Virus record (IMG/VR): IMGVR_UViG_3300046714_000236 | Coordinates: 30,230-94,229 of that record | Origin: a virus | DNA: 64,000 bases | Reading direction: 5' to 3' (one strand) | Part shown: positions 1,213-22,472 of the stretch, piece after piece | How the letters are laid out: each line of letters starts with the position of its first letter | Numbering within the stretch: the stretch's first letter is position 1 | Translations under genes and position numbers: made by a program | The notes under the pieces: model-generated | What the model saw: only the letters and a program-made list of their open reading frames with translations | The model's database searches: none | What the model was told of the DNA's origin: nothing

Positions 1213-2984
1213 GAGTTGTCCTCCACGACGACGGGAACCGGCACAGGAGCGAGCTCGCTTTCCGCAGGCGTGATCTCCTGCCCCTCGGGAAGCGACGCGT
1301 CCGCGCGCACTTCCACGTAGTTGATGCACCCCACTTCGAGCTTCACGCCCGAGTCCTGATCCCAATCCGTCGACACCGTCTTCAGGCGGAACGTGCGCGG
1401 GAACCCGATCGCGCTGTACGCCTTCGCGTACGCACCCGCGAAGTCTTCGGAGAACCCGAGCGCGATGAGCTTCTGCGCCTGCGCACTCTCGCTCGCCACC
1501 GCCACCACCGTGTTCAAGTTGTCGTCCTCTTTCGCCTGCGAAGTGATCACGTCGACGGAGTCACCCGGGATCGCGTCGAGCATGTCGGGGTCGATGTTGC
1601 TGCCGCCGAGCGATCCGAGATTGCGTGTGAGCATCGTCACCGCGATCTCGTTCCGCCCCCACACCTCGTAAGCGCTCTGAGCGAGAAGCCGGAGCGTGTC
1701 TTCGCTGCCGATCCCCGAGACGCGCACGACTTGATACTTCTGATCCGCGTTCTGCCCGGGCAGGAGCTTGCTCTGTCGATCGATCTTCGCGGGGTACCGC
1801 ACGACGAGCGTCTTCTTCCGGTCGGGCAGGTACGAACGAACCTCGACGTTGAACGGCGCCGCCTTCGTGAAGTGCCGCTCCATGTCGTATTCCGAAATGT
1901 TCTCGCCGTACAAATAGGTCCGCGATCGGAGCTCCGTTCCGTCGGGCAGGAGCCGCCCCGTGAAGACGTCATCCGTGCGCCCCGAGTAGCCCGCCGCGTA
2001 CAGCGTCCGCGCGCGCTGCACGATCACCGTCGTCCCCTCGATGCGCACCGTGTGCCCGAGCGCGCCCACGACGTCCGTGATGTAGTCCCACGTGCTGAGC
2101 TTCTGCGAGCTCGCTGCCCCCGCGCCCGCGCCGCCCACCGGCGTGGGCCCGAGCTTCGGGGGATAGGCGTTCCGCCCGAGCACTGTCGCGAGGTTCGGGA
2201 TCTTGCTCCGCGCCACTGCAGGCCGGTACTCCACCGAGAACCCGCGGAGCTGTGGGAACGCGCTCATGTACGTCGCGATCGCAAGGTCGATCGGATCGTC
2301 GACGCCGATGTAAAGACGCGGCGGAGCTTCCTGCTCGATGAGGATCCGCGTGTTGTCCGTGCACGAGAGCTCGATGATGGGCGCACCGTCGTTCGGTCGC
2401 GAGTTCCGCCAAATGTCGACCCACCCTTGAAAGCGGAGGTTCGTGCGCTGCTGCCTGCCGTCGAAGTACGTGTCCGGGATCACGTTGTACGGGAGCTGCA
2501 GCCCGTCGCTCGTCGCGTTCGCCCGGATGTTCCCCGCCACACCGAGCGCGTACTCGTCGGCGCTCACCGTGCCGAGGAAGTACTCCACCGCGCACGAGCG
2601 GATCGGCCGCGGATCGATCGGCAGATCGAGAAAGCTGATCGTCGCCTTCAGCTGATCGGCGATGCGGATCCCGTTGCGATCGTGCCGCGCGTTCTTCGGG
2701 ATGATCCCGTCGATCACGTGCGTGAGCCCGTCGTCGCTCGTCGTCTGCTTCTGCGGGCCGAGCTTCTCACCCGGCGTGTCCCCTTCCCCGAGGAGCACGA
2801 ACCCGGAACCGTCCTGCACCACGCGGAGCTTCGTCGTCGCGCCCGAGTCCTTCACGCCCGTGCGGTTCTGGCTCGGGAGCGTGGGAGGCTTCGGCGTTCC
2901 GGGCGCGCCGTAGTCTTCGAGCCGGATGATGAGTCTCAGGCGCGCGCTCGGGTAGTAGCCGCCCTTGTCGAATCCGAAGGACAC
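1209..2984 (-). CDS. Baseplate hub / late-control protein D-like
   Basis: A 591-residue, beta-rich protein placed between small accessory genes and the spike gene. Size and order (hub then spike, coupled by ATGA) fit a P2 gpD/T4 gp27-type hub that connects tube and spike. The middle part has a region around residues 300-360 resembling hub proteins: helix 'YITDVVGALG', then 'VRIEGTTVIVQRA'. The start is GTG at 2984. No enzymatic motif is visible. It could be another baseplate or tail protein of the same module. Confidence 0.55.
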   Translation of the reverse strand: MSFGFDKGGYYPSARLRLIIRLEDYGAPGTPKPPTLPSQNRTGVKDSGATTKLRVVQDGSGFVLLGEGDTPGEKLGPQKQTTSDDGLTHVIDGIIPKNARHDRNGIRIADQLKATISFLDLPIDPRPIRSCAVEYFLGTVSADEYALGVAGNIRANATSDGLQLPYNVIPDTYFDGRQQRTNLRFQGWVDIWRNSRPNDGAPIIELSCTDNTRILIEQEAPPRLYIGVDDPIDLAIATYMSAFPQLRGFSVEYRPAVARSKIPNLATVLGRNAYPPKLGPTPVGGAGAGAASSQKLSTWDYITDVVGALGHTVRIEGTTVIVQRARTLYAAGYSGRTDDVFTGRLLPDGTELRSRTYLYGENISEYDMERHFTKAAPFNVEVRSYLPDRKKTLVVRYPAKIDRQSKLLPGQNADQKYQVVRVSGIGSEDTLRLLAQSAYEVWGRNEIAVTMLTRNLGSLGGSNIDPDMLDAIPGDSVDVITSQAKEDDNLNTVVAVASESAQAQKLIALGFSEDFAGAYAKAYSAIGFPRTFRLKTVSTDWDQDSGVKLEVGCINYVEVRADASLPEGQEITPAESELAPVPVPVVVEDNS

Positions 2985-19950: not shown

Positions 19951-21354
19951 TCAGGAGCCGAGCGCGAACTCCAACATGAGCGACCGCTTCACGATCTGCG
20001 GGCCGCCCGAGCTGATGTCGGTCGGGATCGGGAAGCCACCCGTGTAGCTCCACGTGCACGACACGATGTCTTGCGTCCGGTTGACCGGGCTCCGAAGGAT
20101 CAGCGAGATGCGATCCGTCTTCACTTCGATCCCTTGGTTCGTGATGTTGAAGCCGCCGATCTTGCCGGTGACTCCCGCTTCACTCACGTAGCGCTTCTCG
20201 TCGAGCCAGCGCTCGTAGATCGCACCGCGCCCCGTGATGACGACGCGACCGACGCGAACGCCGGTGTAGTTCACCACCTCGGCGTTGATGCCCTTCGCGA
20301 ACTTCGCGCTGCCCGCCGTCGTGATGAGCGCGCCCGAGTTCGAGTCGTCCGGCGTCTCGTTGTTGAGGAAGAACGCGATCCCCGCGCCCGTCCCGATGAA
20401 CGCCGACTGATACTGAATCGAGTCGGGACGCCCTTGGTTCAGGCGCTGCATCACCTGATCGGTGAAGATCTGGCCGTTGCCCTCGGGGCTGATGTGCGCG
20501 TGAAAAAACCCGTCTTCGTGTGGGAACACGTTGTTTTGACGGAGCTTGTTCGTCGCGTTGATGAAGTCCTGGTACTGCAGGATGTCGTTCGCCTGCAGTG
20601 CATCGACTGACGTGCCGCCACCGGCGCGCATGATGATCGGGCGCGTGCTCGCGAGGACCGAGCTACGGATCGCCACGCCTGCGCCGACAGTGCTGTCGAG
20701 CGCGAGCGTACCGGGACCGAGCGGGACCGCGGGATCGTACGGCGTCGCGCCGATCACGTTCAGGCTGATCGGCGTGGTGCCGCTCATGAGCGTGATGGGG
20801 AGCGGTGCCGCCGTCGAGACGGGCGTCGGGCGCACGGTCGTACCGCGCGTGATGACGCTCGTGAACCCGTTGAGGCTCGCGACCTGAAGGAACGTGTCAC
20901 CCGTGAGCGCGGCGACGATGAGCGCCGTCGAGCCCTGAAGGTACGCGGTGCAGAGCGCGTTCCTCGGGATGCGGTTCAGCGACTGCCCCGCCTGAAGGCC
21001 GAGCTGCTGAATGCTCCGGAGGAAGATGTCGCTGTTCGCGACCGCGTTCGTCGGCATGTCGACGTCGATCGTGCCGATGTAGCGATCGAGGCGAGCAGTC
21101 CATTGCTCCCACGTGAGCGCTTGCGGCTCGGGGTCGACACCGGGCACCGCGGGATCCGTGATCGGATCGAGCAGGCCGGCGCGAGTCATGAGGATTTCCT
21201 GGCCGGTGTTGCCCTGCCACTCTTCCTCTTGCGCTTCGCCCCTGAAGAGCATCGCGGGGAAGAGCCCATCGTGGAACGCGCGCTCCAGTAGGCCAGTCTG
21301 AACGAGGTTCAGGATCGTCGGAGGTACTCCGAGAACGATGCCGTTGGTCTCCAT
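19951..21354 (-). CDS. Major capsid protein
   Basis: A 467-residue coat candidate directly after the scaffold gene. The N-terminus has 'LVQTGLLERAFHDGLFPAML', and the pattern around residues 90-130 (helix 'VANSDIFLRSIQQLGLQAGQ') is typical of HK97-fold coats of the P22/N4 coat-like groups. The rest is a beta-rich A- and P-domain. Its leader (21355-21572) carries an inverted repeat over the ribosome site, a 12-bp hairpin and palindrome copy 5, suggesting regulated synthesis. Assignment rests on size, order and profile. Confidence 0.7.
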   Translation of the reverse strand: METNGIVLGVPPTILNLVQTGLLERAFHDGLFPAMLFRGEAQEEEWQGNTGQEILMTRAGLLDPITDPAVPGVDPEPQALTWEQWTARLDRYIGTIDVDMPTNAVANSDIFLRSIQQLGLQAGQSLNRIPRNALCTAYLQGSTALIVAALTGDTFLQVASLNGFTSVITRGTTVRPTPVSTAAPLPITLMSGTTPISLNVIGATPYDPAVPLGPGTLALDSTVGAGVAIRSSVLASTRPIIMRAGGGTSVDALQANDILQYQDFINATNKLRQNNVFPHEDGFFHAHISPEGNGQIFTDQVMQRLNQGRPDSIQYQSAFIGTGAGIAFFLNNETPDDSNSGALITTAGSAKFAKGINAEVVNYTGVRVGRVVITGRGAIYERWLDEKRYVSEAGVTGKIGGFNITNQGIEVKTDRISLILRSPVNRTQDIVSCTWSYTGGFPIPTDISSGGPQIVKRSLMLEFALGS

Positions 21355-21357
21355 GTC

Positions 21358-21467
21358 GATTCACTCCCTGAGATTTGATCCGCGCCGGAATGGCGTCGGC
21401 TCGTGCGCGGCTCGTGACTCGGGGAGGACCACTTGTTTGGGACCGCGAGTGGACGCGGGAGTGAATC
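21358..21467 (-). promoter_or_regulatory. 11-bp inverted repeat covering the coat gene ribosome site
   Basis: On the minus strand GATTCACTCCC (21467-21457) can pair with GGGAGTGAATC (21368-21358). The second arm contains the ribosome site AGGGAG and ends 3 bases before the coat ATG. Pairing would hide the site. The 88-base loop contains two copies of ACGAGCCG. Confidence 0.6.
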
Positions 21468-21503
21468 AACGGTTGCCGCTGTTGATCTGACTCCAGAAAC
21501 GTA

Positions 21504-21543
21504 TCAGGGCTCCGCACCCTGCACAAGGATCGCGGAACCCTGA
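21504..21543 (-). promoter_or_regulatory. 12-bp leader hairpin upstream of coat gene
   Basis: TCAGGGTTCCGC pairs with GCGGAGCCCTGA (one G-U) around a 16-nt loop. No T-run follows, so it is not a normal rho-independent terminator. It may act in processing or attenuation. Confidence 0.55.
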
Positions 21544-21546
21544 TGG

Positions 21547-21564
21547 ACCGACATCGATGTCGGT
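21547..21564. repeat. Dispersed palindrome, copy 5
   Basis: Exact 18-mer, 3 bp from the leader hairpin, in the 218-bp gap between scaffold and coat genes. Confidence 0.9.
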
Positions 21565-21572
21565 CGGAGTCG

Positions 21573-22472
21573 CTACCAGCTTTTTTTCATGCCCTGGCGG
21601 TTCATGTACTCCTTCAGCTGCTTGTCGTTCATCGAGTTCGGGAGCCCGGGACGCGGCGTCAAACCCGCGAGCGGATCGGGCGCCGCGGGAGCGGCCGCAA
21701 CCTTCGGCGGGACCGGCTGCTTGCCGTTCGTCGCTGGCGTTCGCACGGGAGGCTTCGGCGCCGCCGCGGGAGCTGCAGCCGCGGGGGGAGCGGTGAGCTC
21801 AGCGGGAGGCGCGCCCGTCGGTGCCTCGACCAGTTCCTGATTCTCCTTCGCGTACTTCGCGAGCCACGCGTTGATCGCAGCGCGTCCGAACTTCCCTTGC
21901 TCCGTCTTCGTGAGCTTCGCGTAGTGCTGCGCCATCTGATCGTTCACGAACGGCACGAACTTCTCTTTGAACTTGTGCGATGCGACGAGCGCGCGCACCT
22001 CGGCGTTCTGCTTCTGCGCAAGCGTCTGCGTCTTCTGATCTTCGAGCTGTGCGGTGAGCTCTGCGATCTTCGTCGTCGCCTTCTGCAGATCGGCCTTCAG
22101 CTGATCGATCTCCGTCATCTCGGAGCGCTTGCGCGCTTCTGATTCCTCACGAAGGCGCGTGAGCTCTTCCGCGTCCGCTTGCCGCTTGACCCTGAGCTTC
22201 TCGACTTCCGCCGGATCGTCCGTGCCGAACTCGGCCTTCAGGAGTCGCTTGCGCTCTGCCTCGCGTTCCTTCCGCTTCACATCCGAGATCGCTTCTTCCG
22301 GCACGGGGCTACCGCCGCGACCGAGCACGGGCGCAACGGGTTCGACGGGAGCGGGCTCGATGGGTGGAGGCGCGGGAGGCGCGACCGCTACGGGCGCCGC
22401 AGGGGGCACGACGATCGCGGGAGGCGGCATCGGGGGAGCTGGGTTGACGGGTGCGACGGCAGGTTCTGTCAT
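21573..22472 (-). CDS. Capsid scaffolding protein
   Basis: A 299-residue protein: Pro/Ala-rich N-terminus (about 1-55), a long charged coiled coil (about 62-165, e.g. 'LTRLREESEARKRSEMTEID'), a helical region, a second Ala/Pro-rich linker, and a C-terminal helix 'LKEYMNRQGMKKSW' with basic residues, as scaffolds use to bind coat. It lies directly before the coat gene. AGGAG ribosome site. Scaffold would be lost on capsid maturation. Confidence 0.7.
   Translation of the reverse strand: MTEPAVAPVNPAPPMPPPAIVVPPAAPVAVAPPAPPPIEPAPVEPVAPVLGRGGSPVPEEAISDVKRKEREAERKRLLKAEFGTDDPAEVEKLRVKRQADAEELTRLREESEARKRSEMTEIDQLKADLQKATTKIAELTAQLEDQKTQTLAQKQNAEVRALVASHKFKEKFVPFVNDQMAQHYAKLTKTEQGKFGRAAINAWLAKYAKENQELVEAPTGAPPAELTAPPAAAAPAAAPKPPVRTPATNGKQPVPPKVAAAPAAPDPLAGLTPRPGLPNSMNDKQLKEYMNRQGMKKSW

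Follow-up and report, generated by a model that had tools for sequence, protein, structure and literature searches.

The gp32 translational operator in the leader of gene 32 of phages T4 and T2 is a pseudoknot, and in T4 it has a short first loop (L1) and an A-containing third loop (L3). In the head operon of phage P22, the scaffolding protein limits its own synthesis post-transcriptionally, and we know of no conserved pseudoknot consensus for this autoregulation. At the RNA level, little is understood of how actinobacterial phages control the synthesis of their head proteins. Another described pseudoknot, the STAXI motif, is short, repeated in tandem and located near genes for DNA-handling proteins (PMC2864571). 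The coat gene leader analyzed here contains a conserved H-type pseudoknot that probably represents a hitherto unrecorded RNA element controlling how phage heads are built.

The window, which is the whole stretch of DNA that was analyzed, comprises 64 kb of a 94,229-bp IMG/VR viral record. A scaffold and a major coat protein gene lie on its minus strand and are separated by 218 nt that form the coat leader. The features of this locus are as follows.

19951-21354, minus strand: major coat protein gene (phrog_1357, E 1e-11; Streptomyces phage Kromp capsid, 31%)
21573-22472, minus strand: scaffold protein gene (phrog_206, E 1.5e-4; C-terminal PGLPNSMNDKQLKEY similar to the scaffold C-termini of relatives)
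21546-21565, minus strand: perfect 20-bp palindrome GACCGACATCGATGTCGGTC, starting 7 nt past the scaffold stop codon
21532-21544/21503-21515 (span 21503-21544), minus strand: hairpin with 13-nt arms, 92% complementary, pairing probability 0.87-1.0
21457-21470/21355-21368, minus strand: inverted repeat with 14-nt arms, 93% complementary, with a perfect 11-bp core (21457-21467/21358-21368)
21457-21470, minus strand: first repeat arm (anti-SD strand); pseudoknot stem S1 begins with its last two bases
21355-21368, minus strand: second (3') arm of the repeat, including the coat SD GGGAG (21368-21364), 9 nt ahead of the ATG
21458-21429, minus strand: H-type pseudoknot CCGCG-U-CCACU-CGCGG-UCCCAAACA-AGUGG, from comparison with relatives, with covarying stems
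21458-21454, minus strand: S1 5' strand, CCGCG
21453, minus strand: L1, U (1 nt)
21452-21448, minus strand: S2 5' strand, CCACU
21447-21443, minus strand: S1 3' strand, CGCGG
21442-21434, minus strand: L3, UCCCAAACA
21433-21429, minus strand: S2 3' strand, AGUGG
21462-21459/21420-21417, minus strand: possible outer stem P0, ACUC/GAGU, closing the pseudoknot; at 4 bp weak for the window

The scaffold proteins of relatives have the common ending PGQPNSM..(E/A)...(R/K)..G..W, probably a coat-binding tail. Along the transcript, the palindrome is followed by the hairpin and then by the inverted repeat that carries the SD in its 3' arm; all three components were confirmed as the first-pass annotation had described them. 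Folding of the leader yielded -99.7 kcal/mol versus -75.2 kcal/mol in shuffles (z -5.2), which together with the covariation reported below bears out the proposal that the leader is a structured RNA. An 11-bp inverted repeat appeared anywhere in 0.6% of dinucleotide shuffles and reached the SD in 0.1%, and the helix between the SD and the upstream arm is predicted to form in the window with a probability of about 0.85. The pairing proposed to block initiation is a prediction for this one leader; no shared SD-hiding helix was found among 50 coat-family leaders, in which SD accessibility ranked slightly below shuffles (mean rank 0.345, expected 0.5), a weak trend. Long-range SD sequestration as a conserved feature was ruled out on this ground. 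As the relatives do not have the repeat, hiding of the SD through it looks particular to the window phage, and the strongest pairing in a single sequence need not be the functional one.

The palindrome GACCGACATCGATGTCGGTC in the leader is one of 14 copies in the window (3934, 5866, 9665, 11025, 21546, 24304, 28211, 31008, 38349, 40882, 46317, 50948, 56122 and 62981) and of 19 in the whole contig, and its exact sequence was not found in other IMG/VR contigs. Since about nine of the 14 window copies are located no more than 22 nt past a stop codon, the palindromes are possibly 3'-end hairpins (U-less terminators) or a DNA-binding site. The intergenic regions of relatives have other palindromes, with ATCGAT or GATC at the center (CGATCGAACATCGATGTTCGATCG, GACGTCGGATCGATCCGACGTC and GACGCCGGATCGATCCGGCGTC; found in the L044 leader and near 5455 in L006, 5090 in L007 and 5040 in L008), as if each lineage had its own palindrome set.

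A profile of five coat proteins identified 69 further coat loci, and the comparison of coat leaders located the pseudoknot between the arms of the SD repeat, where the first-pass annotation had missed it. Counting the window, 50 of 54 distinct coat leaders contain the pseudoknot, 39-126 nt upstream of the start codon (median 68), as part of a short element common to the relatives (e.g. ACGCGGCACACCGGCGGTCAACAGGTGG). Its form in this coat family consists of S1 (CGN/N'CG), L1, an S2 of 4-6 bp, the S1 3' strand, a loop GUCAACA or similar, and the S2 3' strand. The consensus motif was present in 34 of 49 leaders versus 0.011 expected per 200-nt leader, with a background of 0.0555 per kb in the same loci. 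No pseudoknot was found in the L071 leader and only a weak manual candidate in that of L012; those of Kromp, phiKX1, Koji and Ilzat showed no clear one. The coat leader of L089 contains two tandem pseudoknots (2096-2140 and 2159-2204, minus strand), and a hairpin is located upstream of the pseudoknot in the leader of L010, as it is in those of Avani, ODay and ReT1v-1.

The 100% pairing among finder matches is not itself evidence, as the finder requires pairing. Covariation was assessed in a MAFFT alignment of 27 sequences that took no account of structure. The seven pairs are all present in each sequence; two-sided changes numbered 24 versus 5.4 after shuffling, and the score was 0.387 versus 0.158 (at most 0.114 with slid partners). 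With the out-of-register sequences included (42 in all), it was 0.274 versus 0.108. With selection on S1 and the loop only, S2 pairing was above all permutations in both coat families (0 of 5000 as good). On a coat tree of 47 sequences, three variable pairs require at least 9, 8 and 8 both-side changes, amounting to at least 25 independent ones. Pairing of the flanks in the manner of P0 (e.g. CUCCC/GGGAG, ACCUAU/AUAGGU and UCCGG/CCGGA) reached 8.72 in 50 leaders versus 6.65 when permuted (sd 0.32), a value attained in 0 of 5000 permutations. The covariance model matched the window at 21420-21467 (E 0.0019, the window itself being in the training alignment). Stem S2 of the window is absent from secondary-structure folding because the program cannot make pseudoknots, and an energy estimate makes it merely competitive. 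The H-type arrangement, in which the stems cross and L1 spans S2 and L3 spans S1, is borne out by covariation of both stems in alignments that were not fitted to the structure. Comparative evidence of this kind, with the conserved A-containing L3 and the frequent outer stem, supports the existence of the pseudoknot and shows that the RNA structure of the leader is under selection. The element stands on the coding strand, ahead of head genes. The covariation in relatives that the first-pass annotation had proposed as a check is real, and it resides in the pseudoknot and the outer stem, between and beside the repeat arms, not in the SD repeat.

In the distant relatives L067 and L069, the covariance model located the pseudoknot upstream of the gene for the scaffold instead of that for the coat protein. 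In L086, it precedes a small ORF and the scaffold gene, and the coat protein belongs to a different HK97-type family (PF05065) that had no match to the window coat family in tblastn. A scan with this second family yielded 80 loci. Common to both coat families is the consensus UA-CGC-nnn-S2-GCGGUCAA-S2', in which the loop GGUCAA and the C-G/G-C pairs of S1 are conserved in sequence; the S2 arms in many scaffold leaders of the second family covary freely (CACCGA/UCGGUG, CAGCAG/CUGCUG, CGCAGA/UCUGCG, CGCGCA/UGCGCG and CGUCCG/CGGACG). Among 12 gap-free sequences of the second family, 90.7% of cells were paired, with 19 two-sided changes versus 5.2 and a score of 0.519 versus 0.182. S2 ends 14-20 nt upstream of the start codon, immediately ahead of AGGAGG. 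As the simple finder did better than shuffles in only 37% of these leaders, a recognizable copy is not present in every one.

Isolated phages with the pseudoknot in the scaffold leader include Avani and Zapner (Mycobacterium), ODay and Malisha (Gordonia), ReT1v-1 (Rhodococcus) and ArV2 (Arthrobacter). A blastn search with a 101-nt leader query found homologues in Mycobacterium, Gordonia and Rhodococcus phages, and one with the short motif against phage records returned only chance-level pieces. Between Zapner and ReT1v-1, two S2 pairs are changed on both sides (CGUCCG/CGGACG to CAUCCA/UGGGUG). Bobi, JoeDirt, Archie, Bromden and Volt yielded candidates that diverge further, the versions of Mycobacterium clusters F, K and L (Bobi, DarthP and JoeDirt) being judged by eye and by the finder only. 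A further copy in Bobi directly precedes the gene for the terminase small subunit (start 445), and one in Zapner precedes a gene that shares the protein start of this Bobi subunit. Pattern matches in these isolates are almost confined to these two places, ahead of the scaffold gene and ahead of the terminase small subunit gene. The scaffold leaders L220-L223 have a hairpin just 5' of the pseudoknot, whose arms vary in a compensatory manner (CCCGUC/GACGGG in ODay, CCCGCC/GGCGGG in ReT1v-1). A stretch CCTCGGCGG between scaffold and coat in L120, L121 and L126 is common to several mycobacteriophages, upstream of the major capsid gene. The exact motif had 28 matches in 257 Gb of genomes, near the expectation for an 18-base GC-rich pattern. 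No coat relative was present among the genome contigs, and an origin in bacteria or a prophage was rejected for this reason.

Leader pseudoknots elsewhere change translation initiation, and the same is suggested for the window-type element by its position ahead of SD sequences. We hold with moderate confidence that the conserved pseudoknot is a cis-acting element for the head gene downstream of it, most likely for translation of that gene. It would serve for recognition or timing, with translation initiation of the gene behind it depending on its state. In the window, the read-out may be the SD-hiding 11-bp repeat, the first arm of which begins at the pseudoknot base: formation of the outer stem would leave the SD free and formation of the long-range helix would hide it. 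Two bases of S1 belong to the first repeat arm, which also extends over the site of the outer stem; the SD-hiding helix and a local P0 would therefore be mutually exclusive, whereas the helix leaves room for the pseudoknot core. The energies are close: the minimum free energy is -109.7 kcal/mol, and the state with an unpaired pseudoknot region and an intact helix has -98.0 kcal/mol, which the two stems of the pseudoknot would lower by an estimated 10 kcal/mol or so. A switch between repeat and outer stem is plausible in the window phage and, given relatives without the repeat, would be particular to it. As the consensus is common to different coat families and is also found ahead of a terminase gene, a host component or widely shared factor is a more likely binder than the coat protein. 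A bolder version, which we regard as doubtful, is a new ligand-responsive class of pseudoknot RNA, common to phages from several genera of actinobacteria, that would sense a signal from the host or from the infection and turn on scaffold, coat and terminase translation late in infection.

The main rival of translational control is an element for mRNA processing or stabilization, which would form a cap at the 5' end of head-gene mRNA after processing, block decay by 5' exonuclease or endonuclease and, with no need of a specific ligand, raise the output of the most abundant proteins. Such a role would suit a pseudoknot that always precedes highly expressed head genes, adjoins hairpins and, in the coat family, stands at a variable distance from the SD (39-126 nt), for which reason direct steric control fits that family less well. 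However, the GGUCAA loop and the S1 C-G/G-C pairs are conserved beyond the needs of a plain roadblock and the pseudoknot of the second coat family abuts the SD, and we consider this reading unlikely.

Autoregulation by a protein of the capsid module, with free coat or scaffold protein binding the pseudoknot and repressing translation, is rather less probable. The location of the element at the scaffold-coat boundary or ahead of the scaffold gene would be in keeping with it, but one RNA consensus serves several genes and two coat families that are unmatched in tblastn, and a copy precedes the terminase small subunit gene. Binding by coat or scaffold protein therefore appears unlikely from the sequence comparisons, and the presence of the pseudoknot ahead of scaffold genes (with the other coat family) and of a terminase gene argues against coat-specific autoregulation in particular and weakens the earlier suggestion of it.

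Control at the level of transcription, in which the leader RNA acts in cis on RNA polymerase by antitermination, like HK022 put, or by attenuation, is very improbable: the element does lie behind a gene end and beside terminator-like palindromes or hairpins, but it abuts the SD in the second coat family and the leaders read have no conserved terminator hairpin with a U-run downstream. The original reading, in which the long-range repeat hiding the SD is the main device, had the rarity of its 11-bp match to the SD arm and a high pairing probability in its favor, and is the least credible of all given that the repeat is not conserved in the 50 relatives' leaders and the covariation lies elsewhere.

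A search of the window and its relatives with Rfam 15 gave no match at the gathering cut-off, the sub-threshold ones being at chance level (E up to 5), and no description of the element was found in the literature searched, whose coverage is without many journals. Compared with the small pseudoknot riboswitches preQ1-I and SAM-II, the element is likewise a compact H-type pseudoknot near the SD, but it has no Rfam match and another consensus and is associated with head genes, not metabolic ones. STAXI, which we take to be Rfam RF01728, resembles it in the tandem arrangement, found here in one relative with two copies (L089), but no STAXI match occurred in any leader searched with Rfam. P22 scaffold autoregulation likewise concerns scaffold synthesis in a head operon, dependence on the protein being a feature of P22. 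The gene 32 operator of T4 and T2 shares with the element the H-type, the location in a phage mRNA leader upstream of a gene, tens of nt before the start codon, a short L1 (1 nt in the window) and an A-containing L3. It differs in its sequence and in preceding a gene for a ssDNA-binding protein, whereas the present element combines GC-rich stems, a GGUCAA-type loop and an outer stem with head genes; the coat, scaffold and terminase placements also argue against binding by the protein of the controlled gene in the manner of gene 32. Leader pseudoknots are thus already known from T4 gene 32, with STAXI as another pseudoknot motif, and the present one is new both as an RNA motif and in the genes that it accompanies, being an uncatalogued conserved fold ahead of scaffold, coat and terminase genes that provides a defined 30-nt target in phages of M. 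smegmatis, G. terrae and Arthrobacter.
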